A stretch of 64,000 nucleotides of DNA from an uncultured Paracoccaceae bacterium (lineage in GTDB: Bacteria > Pseudomonadota > Alphaproteobacteria > Rhodobacterales > Rhodobacteraceae). The notes beneath the pieces were generated by a model. The model was not told where the DNA came from and searched no databases. It saw nothing but the letters and a program-made list of their open reading frames with translations. Location: contig CANMIX010000001.1 of NCBI GenBank assembly GCA_947497985.1, positions 62,001-126,000 on the forward strand. The letters are read 5' to 3'. Positions 38,347 to 49,574 of the stretch are shown here, in pieces (position 1 is the stretch's first letter; each line of letters begins with the position of its first letter). Both the position numbers and the translations under genes were made by a program.

Positions 38347-38382
38347 ATCCGGTTTTGCTATCGCGACCTTCGCCTCAATGAC

Positions 38383-38457
38383 CTCCCGCCAATTCCGGGA
38401 ACAGTCACAGACTGCCCCTTCTTTGTTGGGCCAAGCGCCGCGCAAAATGCGCGGCGC
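38383..38457 (-). repeat. Two-hairpin intergenic repeat, copy A1
   Basis: Read on the minus strand: hairpin 1 GCGCCGCGCA-TTT-TGCGCGGCGC (38457-38435), spacer TTG, GCCCAAC (38431-38425), spacer, hairpin 2 CAGTC-TGT-GACTG (38414-38402), spacer, GGCGGGAG (38390-38383). This is the most divergent copy: the GGGA after GCCCAAC is lost. It lies head to head with copy A2. See finding. Confidence 0.65.
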
Positions 38458-38495
38458 AGACCCGCATCATGAACCCGTTTCGATCACACGCAACC

Positions 38496-38568
38496 GCCCT
38501 GTCCGTTTACGGGCAGGGCCACGCCCAACGGGAGCAGATCGCGCACGTGATCTGACGACGGGCGGGAG
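38496..38568 (+). repeat. Two-hairpin intergenic repeat, copy A2
   Basis: Hairpin 1 GCCCTGTCCG-TTTA-CGGGCAGGGC (38496-38519, one G-U pair), spacer, GCCCAACGGGA (38523-38533), hairpin 2 CAGATC-GCGCACGT-GATCTG (38535-38554), then GACGGGCGGGAG (38557-38568). Linker and tail match copies B and C almost exactly while both stems differ. Confidence 0.75.
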
Positions 38569-38666
38569 AGCGTGGGATGCTTTGATGGCAACAATGGTAA
38601 ATTAATATTACCAATCCTAAATTCACCTTTGCCAACACCCCATTACCCGCTACCACTCGTGGCACA

Positions 38667-39596
38667 ATGTTAGATATCTTCCTTAGAACCCTGCCGTTTT
38701 TTGCTATCATCGGCCTTGGCTTTGGCGCTGGTCGCACCGGCTTCCTGTCGCCCTCCGCCACCGCAGCGCTGACCCGGTTTGTGTTCTTCTTTCCGCTGTC
38801 GGCAATGATATTTCGGTTCGCCGCCAATCTAACGCTCCAGGAAATCTTCAACCCCGATCTCCTGTGGGCGTATTTGGTCGGATCCATCGCGGCCTATCTG
38901 CTGGCGACAGCTGTTGCATTCTGGCGCAAACAGGATGCCCCGACTTCGGCAGTTGAGGCGCAATGTGCGGTAATCGGGAACGTCGGCTTTCTGGGACTGC
39001 CGATGATGGCCATTCTGTTTGGCGAGGCATCGGTCGGCCCGATGATGTTGATCCTTACCATCGACCTTGTGGTGTTTTCATCGCTGATCGTGATCCTGAT
39101 CAAACTCGGCAAGGGCAAAGGCGTCGCCCCGTCAACGCTGCTGCTTGCCCTCAAAGGGCTGGTTGCAAACCCGATGATCCTGTCGATCACAGCGGGCCTT
39201 TTATGGTCAGCCTCCGAACTTGCGATCCCGGGTCCGATGAACGACTTTCTGATGATCCTGTCCGGGGCGGCAACACCTGGTGCACTTTTTGCCATTGGCG
39301 CATCACTGGCCATCAAGTCATCCGAGCGTCTGCAAGTCGCTGCATGGCTCAGCTTTGGCAAACTGTTTATCCATCCCGCTTGTGTGGCAATATGTGCGCT
39401 CTGGCTGTTTCCGGTGGCCGCATATCCGGCGCAGATCGCAATCTCGGCCGCTGCTTTGCCGGTGGCGGGAAATGTTTACATGTTGGCACAGTACTACAAT
39501 GTTGCCCCGCAGCGCGCGTCAGCCGCAATTTTCCTGTCCACGGTTGCCTCTATCGTGACCTTACCCATGGTAATCGCCTGGGTTTCCACATTTTAG
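38667..39596 (+). CDS. AEC-family transporter (auxin efflux carrier type permease)
   Basis: 309 residues with about ten hydrophobic helices, first at FFAIIGLGFGAGRTGFL. It has the repeated half-structure of the AEC/BASS fold; IGNVGFLGLPMMAILFG is the family's NxGFxGxP signature, and SGAATPGALFAIGASLA the second. Substrates of bacterial AEC proteins include malate, malonate and other organic acids; none can be assigned. It is separate from mbfA by 320 bases. Confidence 0.9.
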   Translation: MLDIFLRTLPFFAIIGLGFGAGRTGFLSPSATAALTRFVFFFPLSAMIFRFAANLTLQEIFNPDLLWAYLVGSIAAYLLATAVAFWRKQDAPTSAVEAQCAVIGNVGFLGLPMMAILFGEASVGPMMLILTIDLVVFSSLIVILIKLGKGKGVAPSTLLLALKGLVANPMILSITAGLLWSASELAIPGPMNDFLMILSGAATPGALFAIGASLAIKSSERLQVAAWLSFGKLFIHPACVAICALWLFPVAAYPAQIAISAAALPVAGNVYMLAQYYNVAPQRASAAIFLSTVASIVTLPMVIAWVSTF

Positions 39597-39653
39597 AGCG
39601 CAAGTTTCAGATAAAAGAAAGCAAATGGCGCGAAAACAGCTTTCGGTGGCGTC

Positions 39654-39678
39654 CCTGCGCTGGACGCATCAGCGCAGG
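39654..39678 (+). terminator. Stem-loop between AEC gene and fghA
   Basis: CCTGCGCTG (39654-39662), 7-base loop, CAGCGCAGG (39670-39678): perfect 9-bp stem, followed by CCCTTT. The T-tract is short, so it may be a weak terminator for the AEC transcript or a leader structure for fghA, whose start is 37 bases on. Confidence 0.5.
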
Positions 39679-39715
39679 CCCTTTAGCGGTAAGGGCAAAC
39701 AGGTAGAGGTGAATC

Positions 39716-40549
39716 ATGGAAACCGTATCCGAGAACAAGTGCTTTGGCGGCACCCAAGGTGTCTATTCCCACAAAAGCGCTGCAACAGGCTGCGATATGA
39801 CATTTGGCCTGTTCCTTCCGGAAGAAGCTGAAAACGGCCCCGTTCCAATCCTGTGGTATCTGTCCGGCCTGACCTGCACCCACGAAAACGCCATGACCAA
39901 GGCGGGCGCGCAAGCATGGTGCGCCGAACAAGGCATCGCAATTGTGTTTCCCGACACCTCCCCACGCGGCGAAGGTGTTGCCAATGATAACGCCTATGAC
40001 CTTGGCCAGGGAGCCGGGTTTTATGTAGACGCCACTCAGGAACCTTGGGCGCCGCATTTCAAAATGTGGAGCTACATTGCGGATGAGCTCCCGGCCTTGT
40101 TGGGCGAAAACTTTGCAATTGACCTCGACCGTCAGGCAATCACCGGCCACTCGATGGGGGGGCACGGCGCACTGACCTTGGCTATGGGCCTGCCGGGTCG
40201 GTTTAAATCGGTCTCGGCCTTTGCCCCGATCTCAAACCCAAGCGCCAGTGACTGGGGCCGCAAACAGCTGGGCGCCTATCTGGGGGGAGACACATCCACC
40301 TGGGCCAAACATGATGCCACGGTGATGATGCGCGAAACCGGTTTTAAAGGGCCGATCCTGATCGACACCGGCACCGATGATCAGTTTCTGGATCTCCTCA
40401 AACCCGAAGCCCTGGCAAATGCGGTGAATGAACGCCGCCAACAGGCCACTCTGCGCCTGCAGCCCGGCTATGACCACAGCTATTACTTTGTTTCCACCTT
40501 CATCGAAGAGCACGTCGCCTTCCACGCGGACGCGCTTTACAACGATTAA
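39716..40549 (+). CDS. fghA: S-formylglutathione hydrolase
   Basis: 277 residues, esterase D family. It hydrolyses S-formylglutathione to formate and glutathione in formaldehyde detoxification. Nucleophile S146 in the elbow GHSMGGHGAL, the oxyanion block WYLSGLTCTHENAM and DTSPRGEGV are family markers; the histidine is in QPGYDHSYYFVSTF near the C-terminus. AGAGGTG precedes the ATG. The glutathione-dependent formaldehyde dehydrogenase gene usually next to it is not here; sthA follows by 14 bases. Confidence 0.95.
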   Translation: METVSENKCFGGTQGVYSHKSAATGCDMTFGLFLPEEAENGPVPILWYLSGLTCTHENAMTKAGAQAWCAEQGIAIVFPDTSPRGEGVANDNAYDLGQGAGFYVDATQEPWAPHFKMWSYIADELPALLGENFAIDLDRQAITGHSMGGHGALTLAMGLPGRFKSVSAFAPISNPSASDWGRKQLGAYLGGDTSTWAKHDATVMMRETGFKGPILIDTGTDDQFLDLLKPEALANAVNERRQQATLRLQPGYDHSYYFVSTFIEEHVAFHADALYND

Positions 40550-40563
40550 CCAGGAGCCCCGAT

Positions 40564-42069
40564 ATGAGCGAATTTGACTACGACCTGATTGTCATCGGTT
40601 CCGGTCCTTCGGGACGCACAGCCGCCATCCAAGCCGCCAAGCTGAAACGCCGCGTGCTGGTGATCGACCGCAAAGACCGGTTGGGCGGTGTCTCTGTCCA
40701 CACCGGCACCATCCCATCAAAAACACTGCGCGAAACCGTTCTGAACCTTTCGGGCTGGCGCGAGCGCAGCTTTTATGGCCGCTCATATCGGGTCAAAGAC
40801 CAGATCAAGGCGGATGACCTCAAGGCCCGCCTGCACATGACCTTGGATTACGAGGTCGACGTGCTGGAACATCAGTTCAACCGCAACCATGTGGACACCT
40901 TGTCTGGCATGGCGCATTTCATCGGCCCCAATGAGGTCGAGGTTGAGATCGAAGCAGGCGACACCACCACCGTCACTGGTGAGAAATTCCTGATCGCCAC
41001 CGGCACCCGCACCTACCGCCCGGAATATGTGCCCTTTAACGGCACAACCGTTGTGGACGGCGATGAATTCCTCGAGATGGCGGAAATCCCACGCTCGTTG
41101 ATCGTGGTCGGTGCCGGCGTGATCGGGGTGGAATATGCCACCATGTTTGCGGCCCTCGACGTGCGCGTCACATTGATCGAGCCGCGCGACACCTTCCTTG
41201 ATTTCATCGACCGCACCCTGATTCAGGAATTCACCCACCAAATCCGCGAAAACGGTCTCGACTTGCGTCTGGGTTCCGCAATCAAATCGATCGAGGACGA
41301 AGGCGACCATATCGAGGTCACGCTGGAAAACGGACGTCACATTCGCGGTGAGATGTTGCTGTTTGCAGCCGGTCGCATGGGCAATACCGACCGCCTGAAC
41401 CTGTCGGCTGTTGGACTGGAAACCGATCACCGCGGCCGATTGGCTGTTGAGCGCAAGACCTATCAAACCAAGGTGGGTCACATCTATGCAACCGGTGACG
41501 TAATCGGCCACCCGTCGCTGGCGTCGACCTCGCTGCAACAGGGTCGTGTTGCCGCCTGTCACGCGCTCGATACCCCAACTGTTCCCGAAAGCCCTTGGTA
41601 CCCCTATGGCATCTATTCGGTCCCGGAAATGTCCACCTGCGGCATGTCCGAGGAAGAGCTGAACGAACGTGGTGTCCCTTACGAGGTTGGGATCGCCCGT
41701 TTCCGCGAGACCTCGCGCGGGCATATCATGGGGCTGGAACACGGCATGCTTAAAATGCTGTTCTCGCTCAAAACCCGCCGCGTTTTGGGGGTACAAATCG
41801 TCGGCGAAGGCGCGACCGAGCTGATCCATATTGCGCAGGCGGTTTTGAACCTGCAAGGCACTGTGGACTACTTTGTCCAGAACACCTTCAACTATCCCAC
41901 TTTGGCCGAGGCGTATAAAATCGCGGGTCTGGATGCCTTCAACCGCATGCCCATTCCGGACGAATACAAAGTCCCCTCAGCCGCCAAGCCCAAGAAGGCC
42001 GCGACCAAGAAAACCGCCGCCAAAAGCCAAGAAAAGCGCGACACAGACAGCCAAAAGGCGGCAGAGTGA
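40564..42069 (+). CDS. sthA: Soluble (Si-specific) NAD(P) transhydrogenase
   Basis: 501 residues. It moves hydride between NADPH and NAD+, balancing the two pools. FAD-binding start [20 protein letters not shown]; second Rossmann [18 protein letters not shown]-terminal dimerisation domain with [16 protein letters not shown]. The segment [17 protein letters not shown] has serine in place of the remaining cysteine of E. coli SthA, so no redox cysteines are left, which excludes disulfide reductase activity. A lysine/alanine-rich tail of about 25 residues is extra. It probably forms an operon with fghA and the DUF188 gene, whose start overlaps its stop. Confidence 0.93.
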
Positions 42070-42518
42070 CCGCGCTTTACATTGATGCCGACGCTTGCCC
42101 GGTCAAAGCCGAGGCAGAGCGTGTCGCAACCCGCCACAAGATACGCATGTTTGTTGTATCAAACGGCGGGCTGCGCCCCTCTGCCAATGCGTTGGTGGAA
42201 AACGTCATCGTCTCTGCCGGTGCAGATGAGGCCGACAAATGGATCGCCGAACGCTGCGGTCCGGGCGATGTTGTGGTGACCGGGGACATTCCGCTGGCCG
42301 CCAAATGTATTGAGGCCGGGGCACAGGTTCTGCGCCACAACGGCGAACGGTTTACCCAGGCCAATATCGGCCAGCAGCTGGCGATGCGCGACCTGATGGC
42401 GGATTTACGCGCCGCCAACCCATTGGGCATGCAAGGCGGCGGCAAAGGCTTTACCAAAGCCGACCGCTCGCGGTTTCTGGATGCCTTGGAACGCGAATTG
42501 CGGGCCGCTCAGGCCTGA
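42066..42518 (+). CDS. YaiI/YqxD-family protein (DUF188)
   Basis: 150 residues, GTG start overlapping the sthA stop by four bases. [58 protein letters not shown] and the C-terminal [20 protein letters not shown] are the DUF188 hallmarks. The fold is PIN/NYN-like with conserved acidic residues, so a nuclease role is plausible but unproven. Its last 10 bases overlap the convergent NIPSNAP gene. Confidence 0.92.
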
Positions 42519-42847
42519 TCCGCCAACAATGGTGCCAGATCCCCTTCGCTCACAGGGCGCAGGAACTGTCGATCATATCTGCGGATGATTTTATGCTTGG
42601 CAGAATAGGCAAAGGCCGCCTGGCACTCTGCATCATCCATGCTCTTGCGCCGATAGTCTTCATAGGCGGCAAGGGACGGGAAATTGAATATGGCGACGGC
42701 CAGATCATTTGCGCTTTCATGGGGCAGGAAATACCCCAGATGGATGCCGCCCATCCTGTTGACCAATGGGATCCAGGCCCGCGCGTAGATCTCAAACTCT
42801 GTGATCTTGCCCGGGTCGATTTCATAAGTAATGTAACAGGTTATCAT
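42509..42847 (-). CDS. NIPSNAP-family protein
   Basis: 112 residues. The ferredoxin-like dimeric alpha-beta barrel fold of NIPSNAP proteins is indicated by [40 protein letters not shown] and [16 protein letters not shown]. Function in bacteria unknown. ATG 42847 is chosen; longer frames upstream run into the divergent promoter region. Its 3' end overlaps that of the DUF188 gene by 10 bases. Confidence 0.85.
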
Positions 42848-43056
42848 GTCAGTGTCCTTTGATCGGGGATGGTTTTGTTCTGACATTAACCAATCCAGAT
42901 CCAGCTGAATAATGATGATCCGTGCCCCTATGGTTCGCAATTGGTGATCCCAGATTGAGCCATCTCATAAGTTGATACACCACATAATTGTACCCGCTGC
43001 CGATTAGGTTTGCGTCGTGGATTTTCCTGCGCCACAACCAGCATAGGAGAGCGCCA

Positions 43057-44019
43057 ATGCACAGCATTTCGAACACCGCAAAGATCCTTGGCATATTGGC
43101 GGCAGTTGGCGCTGCAGCCTGCTTTTCCATTATCGATATGCTGTTTAAATTTCTGTCGTCCGGCTATCCGCTTTATGAGGTGGTTTTTATCCGCTCAGCC
43201 ATTGCACTGGTGCTTTTGTTGCTGGTCCTTGTACCGTTGGCCGGGGGATACCACACCCTGCGCACCCAGGTTCCGCGTCTGCATCTGATCCGCAGCCTTT
43301 TGGTTCTGGGGGGCAATATCACGTTTTTCACGGGGCTTGCGGTGCTGCCTTTGGCCGATGCTGTCGCCATCGGCTTTGCAACCCCGCTTGTGGTGACAAT
43401 CCTGTCGGTTCTGATCCTTGGCGAACACGTTGGACCCTGGCGATGGAGCGCAGTTGGCATTGGCTTTGCAGGCGTCCTGATAATCATGCAACCGGGCAGT
43501 GGCAGCTTTCAGTGGGCCGCATTTTTGCCGCTGATCGGGGCCTGCGGATATGCAGGCATGCACATCATGTCCCGCCGCATTGGAAAACACGACGCCACGG
43601 TTGCCCTGTCGTTTTATCCGCTTTGTGGTTTTCTGATTGTCAGCTCGATTGCCGGTTTGTGGTTTGGCGACGGGCGATGGGCCGGTATCGGCGCTGAATT
43701 GGGCAGCTTCCTGCTGCGCCCCTGGGCCTGGCCGACCACGGCCGAATGGCCCTTGTTTATCGGTGCAGGGCTGGCCGGATCCGTGGGGGGATATCTTGTC
43801 AGCCACGCCTATAAAACGGCCGAAGCTGGGTTGGTGGCGCCGTTTGAATACATCGCTCTACCCCTTGCAACCCTTTGGGGTATCTTGGTGTTTCAGGAAT
43901 GGCCCGAATTGCAGGTCTGGCTCGGATCACTCTTGATTATCGGTGCCGGGCTTGTTTCTCTTTGGCGCGAAACGCGACAGCAAAAACCACCCAGCCGTCC
44001 CAGACCACGCAATATTTAA
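43057..44019 (+). CDS. DMT-superfamily (EamA) transporter
   Basis: 320 residues, ten membrane helices in two EamA repeats (first GILAAVGAAACFSIIDMLF; second half from LIGACGYAGMHIMSRRIG). RSLLVLGGNITFFTGLAVLP and PFEYIALPLATLWGILVFQE are typical. Substrates in this family range over amino acids and metabolites; unknown here. ATG 43057 has AGGAGA upstream. The 209-base gap to the divergent NIPSNAP gene holds the promoters. Confidence 0.9.
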   Translation: MHSISNTAKILGILAAVGAAACFSIIDMLFKFLSSGYPLYEVVFIRSAIALVLLLLVLVPLAGGYHTLRTQVPRLHLIRSLLVLGGNITFFTGLAVLPLADAVAIGFATPLVVTILSVLILGEHVGPWRWSAVGIGFAGVLIIMQPGSGSFQWAAFLPLIGACGYAGMHIMSRRIGKHDATVALSFYPLCGFLIVSSIAGLWFGDGRWAGIGAELGSFLLRPWAWPTTAEWPLFIGAGLAGSVGGYLVSHAYKTAEAGLVAPFEYIALPLATLWGILVFQEWPELQVWLGSLLIIGAGLVSLWRETRQQKPPSRPRPRNI

Positions 44020-44042
44020 GCATTTGAACACAGGAAGTTTCC

Positions 44043-44675
44043 ATGACCTCTGAACCTACAATCAAAGCCGTCGTTTTTGATCTCGGCCGCGTGTTGATCA
44101 ACTGGGAACCGGAGGCGTTTTATGACGCCCAAATCGGCGAGGCGCGGCGCAAGGCGTTCTTTGACACGGTGCCGATCCATGACACCAACCTGAACGTGGA
44201 CCGTGGATATCCGTTTAAGGAAACGATTTACGCCCTGGCCGAGGAATATCCCGATTGGAGCCAGGAAATCCGTTGGTGGCATGACTGCTGGTTAGAGATG
44301 GCCTCACCCCGGATCCCACATTCCGAACGCCTGCTCCGCGCGCTCAAGTCCAAAGGCATCCCGGTTTTGGCCCTCACCAATTTTGGCGCCGAAACGTTTG
44401 AGATCGCCAAGGATGAGTATGATTTCCTGGCTGAATTCGATCAGGCCTATGTTTCGGGTCAGTTGAAATGCATCAAGCCTGATGCCGAGATCTATCAACA
44501 TCTGGAACAGGGCAGCGGCTGGTCCGGTGCAGAACTGATCTTTGCCGATGACCGTCCAGAAAACATTGAGGCCGCCGCCAAACGTGGCTGGCAGACACAT
44601 CTGTTTACGACACCCGATGGCTGGGCCAAACGACTGGTGACCGAGGGGCTTTTGACACAGGACGAAGCGCAGTGA
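44043..44675 (+). CDS. HAD-family phosphatase (YihX/DhlB-like)
   Basis: 210 residues. Motif I AVVFDLGRVLINWEP, motif II VLALTNFGAETFEI, motif III lysine in GQLKCIKPDAEIYQHL and motif IV IFADDRPENIEAAAKRGWQ. FDLGRVL (glycine after leucine rather than D-x-D) is seen in the YihX/haloacid-dehalogenase branch. The cap is small and helical (about residues 20-90). It overlaps the next gene by four bases. Substrate unknown. Confidence 0.9.
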   Translation: MTSEPTIKAVVFDLGRVLINWEPEAFYDAQIGEARRKAFFDTVPIHDTNLNVDRGYPFKETIYALAEEYPDWSQEIRWWHDCWLEMASPRIPHSERLLRALKSKGIPVLALTNFGAETFEIAKDEYDFLAEFDQAYVSGQLKCIKPDAEIYQHLEQGSGWSGAELIFADDRPENIEAAAKRGWQTHLFTTPDGWAKRLVTEGLLTQDEAQ

Positions 44676-45595
44676 ATCTACCAAGTATCTCTTTCGAACA
44701 GGGAGAAGCGCTGCTGGATTGGCGCGGCTTCACCGAAGCACTTGCTGCCGGGCACAACCTGCCCAAGGCCGAAATTGGCGACACGTTCCTCTATCGCAAG
44801 GACGACACATTGCTGAGCCGCGCTGCCTGGATCGATGGGTTGGGCATGGCCGTTAAAACCGCCAATATCTTCCCCGGCAATTCCGCATTGGGCGTGCCGA
44901 TGATCAACGGTGCGGTGATGCTTTATGCGGATCAAACCGGGGTGCCAGAGGCCTTGGTGGATTTCCATCTGGTGACCAAATGGAAAACCGCTGGCGACAG
45001 CCTGCTGGGTGCGCTACGTCTGGCCAATACAGCCGCAAAAGAGATCCTGATTGTTGGCGCAGGCACAGTTGCCGGATCCTTGATCGAGGCCTTTTCCAGC
45101 TGTTACTCTGATGCCCAGATCCGCATCTGGAACCGCACCACGGTCAAAGCGACGGCGTTATGCGACCAATATCCCGGCACCATGGTAGCGCCCAACTTGG
45201 AGACGGCTGTGCAGACCGCAGACATCATTCTGACCTGCACCATGTCTTCCACACCCGTGATAAAAGGGGAATGGCTGCGCCCCGGACAACATCTGAACAT
45301 GATCGGTGCGTACCGCCCCGACATGCGCGAGGCGGATGATCAAGCGCTGCTCCGGGCGCAGATTTTCACTGACAGTTTTGACACCACCCTGGATCACATC
45401 GGTGAGTTCAAGATCCCGCTGGCCGAGGGCGAGTTGCAGCGGTCGGACGTTCTGGCGGACTTCTATGACATCGGGACCTTCCCCGCGTTTGATCCGACGC
45501 AGATCACCCTGTTCAAAAACGGCGGCGGTGCCCATCTGGACCTGATGACTGCCCGCCACATCCTGTCACTGTGGCAGGCTCAAAACGCCAGTTAA
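44672..45595 (+). CDS. Ornithine cyclodeaminase / mu-crystallin family protein
   Basis: 307 residues, GTG start overlapping the previous stop. NAD-binding segment EILIVGAGTVAGSLIEAF, substrate region LVTKWKTAGDSLLGALRLA (lysine and arginine-like contacts) and IGAYRPDMREADDQAL with the catalytic aspartate region GEFKIPLAEGEL are those of the OCD family. Members include ornithine cyclodeaminase, ketimine reductase and proline-forming enzymes; the exact reaction cannot be told. An element of the two-hairpin repeat family begins 20 bases past its stop. Confidence 0.88.
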   Translation: MNLPSISFEQGEALLDWRGFTEALAAGHNLPKAEIGDTFLYRKDDTLLSRAAWIDGLGMAVKTANIFPGNSALGVPMINGAVMLYADQTGVPEALVDFHLVTKWKTAGDSLLGALRLANTAAKEILIVGAGTVAGSLIEAFSSCYSDAQIRIWNRTTVKATALCDQYPGTMVAPNLETAVQTADIILTCTMSSTPVIKGEWLRPGQHLNMIGAYRPDMREADDQALLRAQIFTDSFDTTLDHIGEFKIPLAEGELQRSDVLADFYDIGTFPAFDPTQITLFKNGGGAHLDLMTARHILSLWQAQNAS

Positions 45596-45614
45596 CCGCA
45601 GCATAGGGCGTGCA

Positions 45615-45678
45615 CTCCCGCCCGTCTTCGACCTTAAAGGTCTCATCCCGTTGGGCCGCGCGCCGCTGACGCGGCGCG
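45615..45678 (-). repeat. Two-hairpin intergenic repeat, copy B
   Basis: Read on the minus strand: hairpin 1 CGCGCCGC-GTCA-GCGGCGCG (45678-45659), spacer, GCCCAACGGGATG (45656-45644), hairpin 2 GACC-TTTAA-GGTC, then GAAGACGGGCGGGAG ending at 45615. It starts 14 bases past the stop of the MFS gene on the same strand and fills the space between two convergent genes. Confidence 0.78.
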
Positions 45679-45691
45679 GGTGGCGCATTGA

Positions 45692-46948
45692 TCAGGCCGC
45701 GACAGCTTGTAAGCGACGTTCGCGAATGGGCAGATGCACAATTGCGCTGAAGGCTCCCACAGCGACACCAATCCACCAGACCACTGTGTAATCGCCGTAG
45801 GTGTCATACATCCGACCACCCAGCCACACACCCAGGAACCCACCCAGCTGGTGGCTGAAAAACACGATCCCATAGAGCGTGCCCATATACCGCAGACCAT
45901 AGATATGTGCGATCAGCCCAGATGTAAGCGGCACGGTTGCCAGCCAAAGCGAGCCCATCACCACCGAGAAGATGATCACCGTCATCGGCGTGATTGGCAG
46001 CAGAATAAAAGTACCCGCCACCACGGTGCGTGCCAGATAAATGCCCGCCAGCAAATATTTCTTGGAGAACCGTTTTCCGGCCCAACCAGCCATCAGCGTA
46101 CCGCCCACATTCGCGGCCCCAATCAAAGCGATAGACACCGCCCCCAACGCCGAGGTGGTTGTCACCCCAAGCCCATGCAGCAGGCTGCCGGGCATGATCG
46201 GGCCGCACATCTCGGTGACAAAGGCCGGGAAATGCGCCGTGATAAAGGCCAGCTGATAGCCACAGCTGAAGAAGCCGAGGAAGATCAACGTGTAACTGGG
46301 ATCTTTCATCGCCTTTTTCAGAATGCCGCCCAGGCTTTCTTCAAGCTCTGCCTTACTGGCCGCAGGCGGCACCCGCATCAAAGGCAGCGTCAGGATAAGC
46401 GCCAGCACAACACCCGCAAAGATGATAAACACCATCTGCCAGCTGAGGAAGGACAACAACCATTCCGCCGTTGGCGCGCCGATGATCTGCCCGGCAGAGC
46501 CTGCAGCCGTCACAATCGCCAGCGACATTGATCGGTTTTCATCCGAACTGGCCCGGCCCACCACGGCCAACACCACACCAAACCCGGTGCCCGCGATGCC
46601 AAAGCCCACCAGCCACTCATAGGCCTGCATCGCACCGGCCGAGGTCGCGCCTGCGCTCAGCACCAATCCGATGGCATAGACAATCGCCCCAATCACAATG
46701 GCTTTGCGATCACCAACCCGTTCCGCAATCGCACCAAAGATCGGCTGCCCAATGCCCCAGGCGAGGTTCTGAAACGCAATCGCAAGCGAGAATTCCGCGC
46801 GCGCCCAGCCAAATTCATCAGCAATCGGGATCTGGAACACCCCAAAAGAGGCGCGCACCGCAAAGCTGACCATAATAATAACGCAGCCCACAATCAGAAC
46901 TGGCGTGAACAAAGGCGCTGCAGCGTGCCGAGCGATGGGCTGGGACAT
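45692..46948 (-). CDS. Major facilitator superfamily transporter
   Basis: 418 residues, twelve hydrophobic helices from LFTPVLIVGCVIIMVSFAVR. The MFS motif GAIAERVGDRKAIVIG follows helix 2, and AGWAGKRFSKKYLLAG is its counterpart in the second half. It resembles the oxalate/formate- and monocarboxylate-type MFS group. GAAAGGAAA lies before the ATG. Substrate unknown. Divergent from zapE. Confidence 0.9.
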   Translation of the reverse strand: MSQPIARHAAAPLFTPVLIVGCVIIMVSFAVRASFGVFQIPIADEFGWARAEFSLAIAFQNLAWGIGQPIFGAIAERVGDRKAIVIGAIVYAIGLVLSAGATSAGAMQAYEWLVGFGIAGTGFGVVLAVVGRASSDENRSMSLAIVTAAGSAGQIIGAPTAEWLLSFLSWQMVFIIFAGVVLALILTLPLMRVPPAASKAELEESLGGILKKAMKDPSYTLIFLGFFSCGYQLAFITAHFPAFVTEMCGPIMPGSLLHGLGVTTTSALGAVSIALIGAANVGGTLMAGWAGKRFSKKYLLAGIYLARTVVAGTFILLPITPMTVIIFSVVMGSLWLATVPLTSGLIAHIYGLRYMGTLYGIVFFSHQLGGFLGVWLGGRMYDTYGDYTVVWWIGVAVGAFSAIVHLPIRERRLQAVAA

Positions 46949-47107
46949 GGGGTTTCCTTTCAGGAGAGCAGACGGACTTTACCCAGCGCTACAAAGCGGT
47001 CAAATCATGAAAAATGTACAACATGTTCACTAAATTTGATGCAACTTGGCTTCAGCAGGCATGGCTGTGCTTTTCTCATCATCAAACACGCGTTAATGCT
47101 TCTGCCC

Positions 47108-48181
47108 ATGACCTCGTTACACGCATTGTACCACGCCAAAGTTGCATCGGACGAACTCCGCCCGGATTCCGCTCAAACCGCTGTTATTTCCGAATTCGAC
47201 CGCATTGGCGAAGGGCTACAAGCCGCGCCGGTGAAACGGGGGTTGTTCCGCAAGGCACAGCCACAGGCCGTAAAGGGGTTGTACCTGTGGGGCGGCGTCG
47301 GGCGCGGCAAATCCATGTTGATGGATCTCTTTGTTGAAAGCCTTAGCGATATCCCCTGCCGCCGTGTGCATTTCCATGCTTTCATGCAGGAGATCCATTC
47401 CAAAATGCACGATGCGCGGCAAAAGAATACGGCAGATGCTCTCGCCCCTGTTGCCCGCGAAGTGGCGCAATCCGTGCGCCTGCTTGCCTTTGACGAAATG
47501 CAGATCACCGACATTACCGACGCGATGATCGTAGGGCGCCTGTTTGAGGCGCTGTTTGAGGCCGGTGTTACCGTGGTGACAACCTCCAACCGGGTGCCGG
47601 ATGACCTTTACAAAGACGGGTTGAACCGACAGCTGTTCCTACCTTTCATTGATCTCATCAAGGAAAAGATGGAAGTCTGGGAAATGGTGTCGCCTACCGA
47701 TTACCGCCAGGACCGCCTGACCGGATCGCCTGTCTATTTCTCTCCGGTCAATGCCGATGCCCGCGCGCAGATCCAGGCCATTTGGGATGATCTGGCCGGC
47801 GGATCCGCCGATCCGTTGCAGCTGGAAGTCAAAGGGCGGTTGGTTGAATTGCCCGCCTTCCGCAACGGCGTGGCGCGGGCGCGGTTCTTTGACCTTTGTG
47901 GCAAAATGCTCGGCCCCGGCGATTATTTGGCGATTGCCGAGGAGGTCAAAGTCCTGATACTCGAAGACATCCCCAGCCTGGGGCGCAGCAATTTCAACGA
48001 AGCCAAACGCTTTGTAACCCTGATTGACGCGCTTTATGAGGCCCGCGTGCGACTGATTTGCTCTGCCGCGGCCGAGCCAGAGTTTCTTTATGTCGAAGGC
48101 GAAGGGGTGTTTGAATTTGAACGCACCGCCAGCCGTCTTCGGGAAATGCAGGACAAGGATTGGGGTCAGGATCCAAACTGA
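47108..48181 (+). CDS. zapE: Cell division protein ZapE (AFG1-like ATPase)
   Basis: 357 residues. ZapE is a Z-ring-associated ATPase of the AFG1 family. Walker A GLYLWGGVGRGKSMLMDLF (about 57-75), Walker B LLAFDEMQITDITDAMI, sensor TTSNRVPDDLYKDGLNR. Length fits. ATG 47108 is used; ATG 47096 is a close alternative, four codons earlier. A repeat copy begins 30 bases beyond its stop. Confidence 0.92.
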   Translation: MTSLHALYHAKVASDELRPDSAQTAVISEFDRIGEGLQAAPVKRGLFRKAQPQAVKGLYLWGGVGRGKSMLMDLFVESLSDIPCRRVHFHAFMQEIHSKMHDARQKNTADALAPVAREVAQSVRLLAFDEMQITDITDAMIVGRLFEALFEAGVTVVTTSNRVPDDLYKDGLNRQLFLPFIDLIKEKMEVWEMVSPTDYRQDRLTGSPVYFSPVNADARAQIQAIWDDLAGGSADPLQLEVKGRLVELPAFRNGVARARFFDLCGKMLGPGDYLAIAEEVKVLILEDIPSLGRSNFNEAKRFVTLIDALYEARVRLICSAAAEPEFLYVEGEGVFEFERTASRLREMQDKDWGQDPN

Positions 48182-48210
48182 TCCGATCCCAGCGGCCTGC
48201 GTGCCTTGAC

Positions 48211-48272
48211 CGCGCCGCGTCAGCGGCGCCCGGCCCAACGGGATGCGGTCGTCAGACCAAAGACGGGCGGGA
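48211..48272 (+). repeat. Two-hairpin intergenic repeat, copy C
   Basis: Hairpin 1 GCGCCGC-GTCA-GCGGCGC (48212-48229), spacer, GCCCAACGGGATGC (48233-48246), hairpin 2 GGTC-GTCA-GACC (48247-48258), then AAAGACGGGCGGGAG ending at 48272. It lies between convergent zapE and folC and is the reverse complement of copy B in layout. Confidence 0.78.
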
Positions 48273-48296
48273 GCGCCGCGCCTGATCTCGGGCCGT

Positions 48297-49574
48297 TCAG
48301 CCGTTTTCGCGCAGGATATGCCCCGCCAGATACAGCGATCCGCAAATCAGCACCCGCACATGGGGGTCTTGCGACACGATCGTCGCCAGCGCTTCTTCCA
48401 CCGATCCTGCAACCTGCGCGGACATTCCAACAGAGGCAGCTGCGTCACATGTGTCCTCTGCGCTCAGCGTGTTCATCTCACCGGGGATCGACACACCTGT
48501 CAGGCTTTCGGCAACATCTGCCAGCGGACGCATATAGCCTGTGACGTCCTTGGTGTTCAGCATGCCGCAGATCAGATGGGTCGACCGTTTTGGCAGGCCT
48601 GACAGAACCTTGGCCAAGGCATCGCCCGCCGCTGCATTGTGACCGCCATCCAACCACAGCTCAGCCGTGCCAGCAGCATCCACTAAGGGTCCGGTCGCAA
48701 GCCGCTGCATCCGCGCAGGCCAAACCGCATCTGTCATCGCCGCTTCACAGGCCGCCTCATCCGCGCCCAGATGCCGCAGAACTGCCAGTGCAGCGCCCGC
48801 ATTGTCGATCTGATGCGCCCCTAGCAACGCAGGCAACGGCAGGTCCAACAACCCACGTTCATCCTTAAACACCAACCGTCCACGTTCTTCCCAGACATGC
48901 CAATGCTGCCCCTGTGCAATCACCGGCGCACCACGGCGCAAGGCGACATCTTCGATCACCTCCATCGCTTCCTCAGATTGTGGTCCCACCACAACCGGTA
49001 CGCCACGTTTGATGATGCCAGCTTTTTCGGCTGCGATTTTGGTCAGCGTATCGCCCAAGAACTGCTCATGATCGATCGACACAGGCGTGATCACCGAGAC
49101 CTCGGGCGTGACAACATTGGTGGCATCCAACCGCCCACCCAGGCCGACCTCTAGCAGCGTGTAATCCGCCTTGGCTCGGGCAAAAGCCAACAGCCCGGCC
49201 ACCGTTGTGATTTCAAAATAAGTGATGTTCTCGCCGCCGTTCTTGGCGTAGCACTCCTCCAGCATCTCGATCAGATGGGATTCTGAGATCAGATCTCCCG
49301 CCAGACGGATCCGTTCGTGAAACCGCGCCAGATGCGGCGAGGTATAGGCATGCACCGATTTCCCCCAGCCTTCCAACCCGGCGCGGATCATCGATTGTGT
49401 CGACCCTTTGCCATTGGTGCCCGCGATATGGATCACAGGCGGCAGATTGTCCTGCGGATTGTCCAGCGCCTGCAACAGCCGCCAGACCCGGTCCAGCGTC
49501 AGGTCAATGATCTTGGGATGCAGCGCCATCATCTGCGCCAGAATGTCATCAGAGGTCTTGGTCATGGCTTTCAC
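48297..49574 (-). CDS. folC: Folylpolyglutamate synthase / dihydrofolate synthase
   Basis: 425 residues. It adds glutamate to dihydropteroate and to reduced folates. P-loop HIAGTNGKGSTQSMI, the Mur-ligase-like VTPVSIDHEQFLGDTLTKIA with metal-binding histidine, and the C-terminal WLDGGHNAAAG are family marks. GTG 49574 is three bases from AAGGA, while ATG 49565 is twelve bases from it; either start is possible. A terminator separates it from accD upstream, though the two genes are commonly adjacent. Confidence 0.95.
   Translation of the reverse strand: MKAMTKTSDDILAQMMALHPKIIDLTLDRVWRLLQALDNPQDNLPPVIHIAGTNGKGSTQSMIRAGLEGWGKSVHAYTSPHLARFHERIRLAGDLISESHLIEMLEECYAKNGGENITYFEITTVAGLLAFARAKADYTLLEVGLGGRLDATNVVTPEVSVITPVSIDHEQFLGDTLTKIAAEKAGIIKRGVPVVVGPQSEEAMEVIEDVALRRGAPVIAQGQHWHVWEERGRLVFKDERGLLDLPLPALLGAHQIDNAGAALAVLRHLGADEAACEAAMTDAVWPARMQRLATGPLVDAAGTAELWLDGGHNAAAGDALAKVLSGLPKRSTHLICGMLNTKDVTGYMRPLADVAESLTGVSIPGEMNTLSAEDTCDAAASVGMSAQVAGSVEEALATIVSQDPHVRVLICGSLYLAGHILRENG

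Follow-up and report, generated by a model that had tools for sequence, protein, structure and literature searches.

What ends a transcript where no ordinary terminator is to be found? The question is raised by a stretch of 64,000 nucleotides (nt) from an uncultured Paracoccaceae bacterium (contig CANMIX010000001.1, positions 62,001 to 126,000; hereafter the window), in which four intergenic sites carry copies of one element with two hairpins. Ordinary terminators are found by a simple scan at only 22–46% of the examined gene ends that lack this element, and because of this low share the ending of the remaining transcripts is a question. We propose that the element is a structured transcript boundary of the Roseobacter group that works without a U-tract, above all at convergent junctions; to this proposal we give an even chance of being correct. 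On the best reading of the data, at least one genome also shows repeat-like spread of the element. A countable and predictable element at convergent junctions makes transcript ending there testable.

Identification of the element

A preliminary description of the window, made from its letters, had proposed four dispersed intergenic copies with a two-hairpin plan and had asked for a covariance model and a scan of Rhodobacteraceae genomes. Our model was built from 36 copies of the host genome and related genomes, every one picked by exact linker and tail; this training set held three of the four window copies (L001–L003), the copy at 38383–38466 being left out. With filters off, the model found four strong matches in the window (65.9, 62.7, 56.4 and 44.1 bits; E values 2e-11 to 5e-07), bearing out the proposed positions except that the last copy ends at 48273, not 48272. 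The copy absent from training scored 44.1 bits (E 4.5e-07). The fifth-ranked match, at E 0.3, was the opposite strand of that copy's own hairpin 1, and the short linker and tail words alone, with mismatches allowed, occurred in the window at chance level.

The host genome (4.19 Mb) contains 42 occurrences of the joint pattern GCCCAACN{10,40}GGGCGGGAG, whereas the reversed control gave 0; this is not the chance level that the preliminary description had named as a sign against its proposal. The first window copy departs from the described plan in that its linker and tail have diverged. The covariance model gave 77 host-genome matches at E up to 0.1 once 150 of the 2896 candidates from a first look had been scored, and a scan of the 455 kb surrounding them raised the total to 80, i.e. 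3 additional copies. Another 400 kb (C1:140001–340000 and C2:1–200000; L289–L308) held 0 matches; about 7 would be expected there from 77 per 4.19 Mb, and the copies look regionally clustered. The genome beyond these two scans was covered by the first look only. In genome G008, the matches among those listed are distributed over two contigs.

The element is uncatalogued, with no credible Rfam family, as had been stated earlier. Rfam 15 at gathering thresholds returned nothing at the copies and, elsewhere in the window, only an ffh small RNA (sRNA). At E up to 1, six loci with copies gave MIR949 and Leu_leader, at 27.5 bits each and below their cut-offs of 100 and 50. A literature search found no description of the element in the titles and abstract openings of the papers listed.

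Two hairpins with covarying stems

On the strand in which the preliminary description had read it (the reading strand), the element consists of hairpin 1, a short gap, G-CCC-AA-N, a variable stem and N′-GC-GGG-AG. Hairpin 1 is GC-rich and mostly 8–12 bp long (median 10 bp), with loops that vary among copies; its four-base loops are of the GNNA type in 35/63 cases and of the TNNC type in 0/63. The combination formed by the base following AA and its counterpart in the tail is CG in 148 copies, GC in 26, AU in 2, UA in 1 and GG in 3 (n = 180, after exclusion of 3 of 183 copies without a usable CCCAA), i.e. Watson–Crick in 177 of the 180, in four types. This covarying pair argues for pairing of CCC with the GGG that precedes AG, around an AA/GC internal loop, so that linker and tail, previously taken as plain unpaired sequence, would pair with each other and close hairpin 2. 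Because the CCC and GGG letters are nearly invariant, the argument for these three pairs is one of register, not of covariation. We dropped a pairing of linker with tail as GCCC:GGGC because the covarying pair favours CCC:GGG with the internal loop, and a K-turn built on tandem G.A pairs because such pairs occur in one variant only. Integron attC sites carry the motif RYYYAAC, which GCCCAAC fits; this candidate was also dropped, since the GTTRRRY counterpart is missing on that strand.

In the 36-copy alignment the covariation score was 0.337, against 0.140 for shuffled and at most 0.177 for slid alignments. Paired cells made up 85% of hairpin 1 and only 58% of hairpin 2, because stem lengths differ. 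Orthologous copies could be compared at the 3′ end of the gene beside the fourth window copy, which has Mur ligase domains and is probably folC, and where 9 of 18 same-genus genomes hold a copy. Seven of these nine, two longer ones (L151 and L153) being omitted, showed 97.3% pairing; in 3 pairs, each belonging to hairpin 2, both bases had changed. Of five measures, all but the number of pair types were above almost every shuffle. We conclude that the stems are under selection for structure. The compensatory change reported in the preliminary description is seen in the alignment, in the 180 copies and in the folC orthologues alike, and the contrary outcome, stem variation with loss of pairing, was not observed.

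Strand preference of hairpin 2

Mismatches flanked by Watson–Crick pairs were counted in hairpin 2. On the reading strand they comprised 54 G.U against 9 A.C in 105 copies from the host genome and relatives (a set that includes a few chance pattern matches, e.g. L056), and, among copies from named genomes, 40 G.U against 4 A.C (100 of 103 copies scored; some genomes may be in both sets). The pooled 94 G.U to 13 A.C compares with 267 to 191 in a control in which arms were exchanged between copies. The reading strand also folds more stably in 88% of the 180 copies, and in 96% when hairpin 2 is taken alone. That the RNA is instead the gene-sense strand, with the reverse complement forming part of a 3′ untranslated region (3′UTR), had been suggested by the nearness of the tail to opposite-strand stop codons; we abandoned this idea because the wobble test and the folding energies favour the reading strand for hairpin 2. 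According to a study of Bacillus cereus terminators (PMC5381666), AU–GC switches there proceed via 89.5% GU and 10.5% AC intermediates, and bidirectional terminators show extra conservation.

The strand originally chosen is therefore upheld for hairpin 2. Hairpin 1 is almost purely Watson–Crick (1264 such pairs, 6 G.U, 18 A.C and 15 other mismatches on the reading strand), and several of its exceptions come from one stem type that our script folded poorly.

Position relative to genes

By the calls of a home-made gene finder trained on the host genome, 42 of its 77 copies lie in convergent gaps (with 1 more overlapping a weak open reading frame), 31 in co-directional and 3 in divergent ones. 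A stop codon lies within 150 nt of 71 of the 77. In 62/77 copies the tail points towards an opposite-strand gene's stop codon, at a median distance of 33 nt and within 60 nt in 49 of these 62. Since 71 of the 77 are so close to a stop codon and more than half lie between convergent genes, an independent sRNA module, one of the roles first offered for the element, is disfavoured.

The same bias was found in a contiguous 400 kb of the relative G114, chosen once matches were listed throughout the contig and not by match number or context. It held 22 model matches, and among gaps of at least 70 nt a copy was present in 14/29 convergent, 3/98 co-directional and 1/48 divergent ones (Fisher 2e-8 and 1e-6). 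One convergent gap scored as empty holds a visibly decayed copy (position 584888).

Copies are often paired. Fourteen of 16 close pairs in the host genome are head to head, 7 of these with one common hairpin 1, and 2 are tail to tail; a looser search found a head-to-head partner for 32/77 copies, compared with 66/5000 random places. In several pairs, the partner facing the first subtype is of a second one, GCCCAAG...GCGCGGGAG. In three copies (G000 C15:98782, C2:352582 and C10:67060; loci L132, L110 and L139) hairpin 1 is immediately preceded on its 5′ side by a further conserved hairpin, AGGTGTTTCGCNTCGGGC...GCCCGANGCGACC, so that elements can be mosaics. At some gene ends (folC 3′ regions L141, L143–L146, L150 and L151; beside G000 C6:195821) the element is followed or replaced by a different recurrent 3′ sequence of the CTTCATCTTTTTGAAAATACTTCGGGGGTGA type.

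Scarcity of ordinary terminators beside copies

Ordinary terminators were sought at gene ends by a simple hairpin-plus-T search with element copies masked; in the host genome the sample comprised the regions around copies and a 400 kb control. In convergent gaps of the host genome they were found at 6/62 gene ends with a copy and 25/66 without, and in those of G114 at 2/28 and 11/30, which gives 8/90 against 36/96 when pooled (p 4e-6). The corresponding counts for co-directional gaps of the host genome were 3/25 and 55/223.

We also considered whether the tail pairs with downstream C-rich sequence as a third hairpin followed by a T-run. The mean score was 13.1, compared with 11.0 for shuffled sequence and 9.8 for other gene ends, and at least four T followed that hairpin in 14% of cases against 6% and 8% in the controls. 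The signal is significant but weak, a trend only, and we do not claim this hairpin.

A candidate transcript boundary

The proposal that the element is a transcript boundary has observed support in its structure, the strand of hairpin 2, its position at gene ends, the scarcity of terminators beside it and one conserved orthologous site. Transcripts entering a convergent junction would pass both hairpins and end at the tail or close to it, just before the opposing gene's stop codon, so that neither gene would be read antisense. Either RNA polymerase would stop at the element, or 3′ ends would be trimmed back to it and protected. Hairpin 1 would serve both strands, hairpin 2 a single one, and head-to-head copies, or a common hairpin 1, would make the unit work both ways. 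The invariant internal loop may be read by a protein or by polymerase itself. A more specific form of this mechanism, which we regard as speculative and rather doubtful, is a factor-read termination code without a U-tract, in which hairpin 1 is a two-way stop or pause and the one-stranded loop of hairpin 2, CCC-AA-N/N′-GC-GGG, docks a candidate protein; such a code would take the place of ordinary terminators in some members of the Roseobacter group while spreading like a repeat. If a bound factor acts in this way, the element is a new termination signal.

Several observations weigh against a transcript boundary. There is no U-tract: of 77 copies, only 6 have at least six T among the 12 nt that follow the tail. 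Co-directional copies of the host genome are not biased to the sense orientation (12 sense and 19 antisense, 2 of the latter at contig ends where the hairpin-1 side is undefined), co-directional gaps of G114 show no exclusion of terminators (2/3 with a copy, 24/95 without), and one copy (L095) sits beyond a good ordinary terminator of a same-strand gene. Imperfect pairs in hairpin 1, few as they are, favour the other strand (A.C 18 to G.U 6; G.U:A.C 7:14 and 5:24 in looser counts). The home-made gene calls are a caveat on all positional counts. Finally, the 157 nt downstream of folC are free of a copy in 9 of 18 same-genus genomes, and 227 of 295 genomes of the family have no exact copy, so the element is dispensable.

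Distribution, and the element as a repeat

Within the family the element is patchy, and many marine bacteria of the Roseobacter group carry dozens of copies. At least one exact copy was present in 68 of the 295 family genomes and at least four in 32 (two of them from the window's genus), with a maximum of 129. The host genome and 17 same-genus genomes all hold copies, from 4 to 85. In a set of 289 genomes from across the class, 21 of the 285 outside the family had 1 or 2 matches and none had more. The pattern was found in at least 119 stretches of the GTDB contig collection. Among the 80 matches listed were Leisingera, Phaeobacter, Ruegeria, Tritonibacter, Tropicibacter, Falsiruegeria, Tropicimonas, Gemmobacter, Pararhodobacter and others, which presumably belong to the same family as the window, and one metagenome-assembled genome titled only Alphaproteobacteria. 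Viral contigs gave 10 exact pattern matches.

This patchiness, with its very unequal copy numbers, fits the main rival of a transcript boundary: a non-autonomous repeat, similar to repetitive extragenic palindromes (REPs) and bacterial interspersed mosaic elements (BIMEs) or to miniature inverted-repeat transposable elements (MITEs), which persists at the least harmful sites (3′ ends of genes and convergent gaps) and keeps its fold for recognition of the single strand by an enzyme or protein. In G114, copies of a near-identical unit, about 125 bp long and terminating at GGGCGGGAG, are found between unrelated flanking sequences; the median nearest identity times coverage is 84%, with 19 pairs at 85% or more among 22 copies. 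The head-to-head and tail-to-tail pairs and the unbiased co-directional orientation also suit a repeat, and one-strand tolerance of G.T and G.A is equally compatible with single-stranded DNA. However, the host copies are diverged (median 71%; of 80 copies, a single pair reaches 85% or more) and yet still pair, and orthologous copies compensate in place. The terminator deficit beside copies in convergent gaps would not be expected of a neutral passenger, nor does a tolerated repeat sit easily with the roughly 16-fold higher share of occupied gaps among convergent than among co-directional gaps of G114. The domain of REP-associated tyrosine transposases (RAYT; TnpA_REP, Y1_Tnp, PF01797) was not found in the host genome nor in 12 of the 14 carriers searched, the host included; it was found in 2 of these 14, in 2 of 18 same-genus genomes and in 11 of 61 genomes in all. 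A tolerated repeat on its own is possible but on balance improbable, and it and a transcript boundary can both be true. If the element is a repeat, it multiplies although no RAYT is detected, and it occupies sites that lack terminators. The terminator or processing element and the REP-type repeat of the preliminary description are still the leading readings.

Other explanations

The element might instead stabilise or process 3′ ends, termination occurring further on (e.g. by Rho) and being followed by exonuclease trimming to the hairpins or by a nuclease cut at the internal loop. The missing U-tract and the strong hairpins at 3′ ends would suit such a site, and the positional evidence is the same as for a terminator. 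The tail lies at most 60 nt from the opposing stop codon in 49/62 cases, leaving scant room for a later terminator unless transcripts enter the opposing gene, and we consider this explanation unlikely. A 3′UTR-derived regulatory RNA, or one that sequesters a protein, is very improbable: invariant internal-loop letters in variable stems do resemble a recognition site, but there are up to 129 exact copies per genome and the loops of hairpin 1 vary.

Comparison with known systems

REP and BIME sequences of enterobacteria and pseudomonads are short palindromic intergenic repeats in tens to hundreds of copies, often head to head and near gene 3′ ends, with a conserved tetranucleotide 5′ of the hairpin. 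Our element resembles them in its many intergenic palindromic copies, in their frequent head-to-head arrangement and in their nearness to gene 3′ ends. It differs in having two hairpins, covarying stems of almost free sequence and a covarying pair beside an internal loop, in the RAYT domain not being found in most carriers, and in its strong bias to convergent gaps in G114.

The CcsR (cuckoo) RNAs of alphaproteobacteria have two hairpins with a C-rich motif, CCUCCUCCC, in the loops. The element shares with them the two hairpins and the occurrence in Rhodobacteraceae; unlike them it is numerous, and no C-rich loop motif was noticed in the copies viewed, no systematic search for one having been made.

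Like intrinsic (Rho-independent) terminators, especially bidirectional ones, the element places GC-rich hairpins at gene 3′ ends and mainly at convergent junctions. Its compensatory evolution with G.U on one strand and its convergent placement recall what is described for the terminators of Bacillus cereus (PMC5381666). It departs from intrinsic terminators in the missing U-tract, in its many dispersed related copies and in having two hairpins and an invariant internal-loop motif, CCCAA/GCGGG, which plain hairpin termination does not need.

The copies in the window

Coordinates of the four copies are given in Table 1. The first two are arranged head to head, and the tail of copy 1 lies 36 nt from the stop of a + strand gene with rubrerythrin and VIT1 domains. 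A DNA similarity search of positions 38350–38660 against plasmids gave no match.

Table 1. Copies of the two-hairpin element, in window coordinates
Feature	Coordinates	Strand	Parts or neighbouring genes
Copy 1 (diverged)	38383..38466	-	Hairpin 1, linker GCCCAACAAAG, hairpin 2, tail TGGCGGGAG
Copy 2	38487..38568	+	Hairpin 1 38496-38505/38510-38519; linker GCCCAAC 38523-38529; hairpin 2; tail GGGCGGGAG 38560-38568
Copy 3	45615..45686	-	Between convergent genes: OCD/mu-crystallin family (+, ends 45595) and MFS transporter (-, ends at 45692)
Copy 4	48203..48273	+	Between convergent genes: AFG1-like ATPase (+, ends 48181) and FolC-like gene (-, ends at 48297)
Hairpin 2 module of copy 4	48233..48273	+	G-CCC-AA-C ... 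G-GC-GGG-AG; putative CCC:GGG(tail) pairing and AA/GC internal loop

Copies 3 and 4 are of similar length and form an inverted pair about 2.6 kb apart around the MFS and AFG1-like genes. Two copies in genome G017 have a similar spacing and identical cores; both pairs hint at local copying or conversion. Far from the copies, the ffh sRNA match (RF01793) lies at 2321–2372 on the + strand and scores 61.6 bits.

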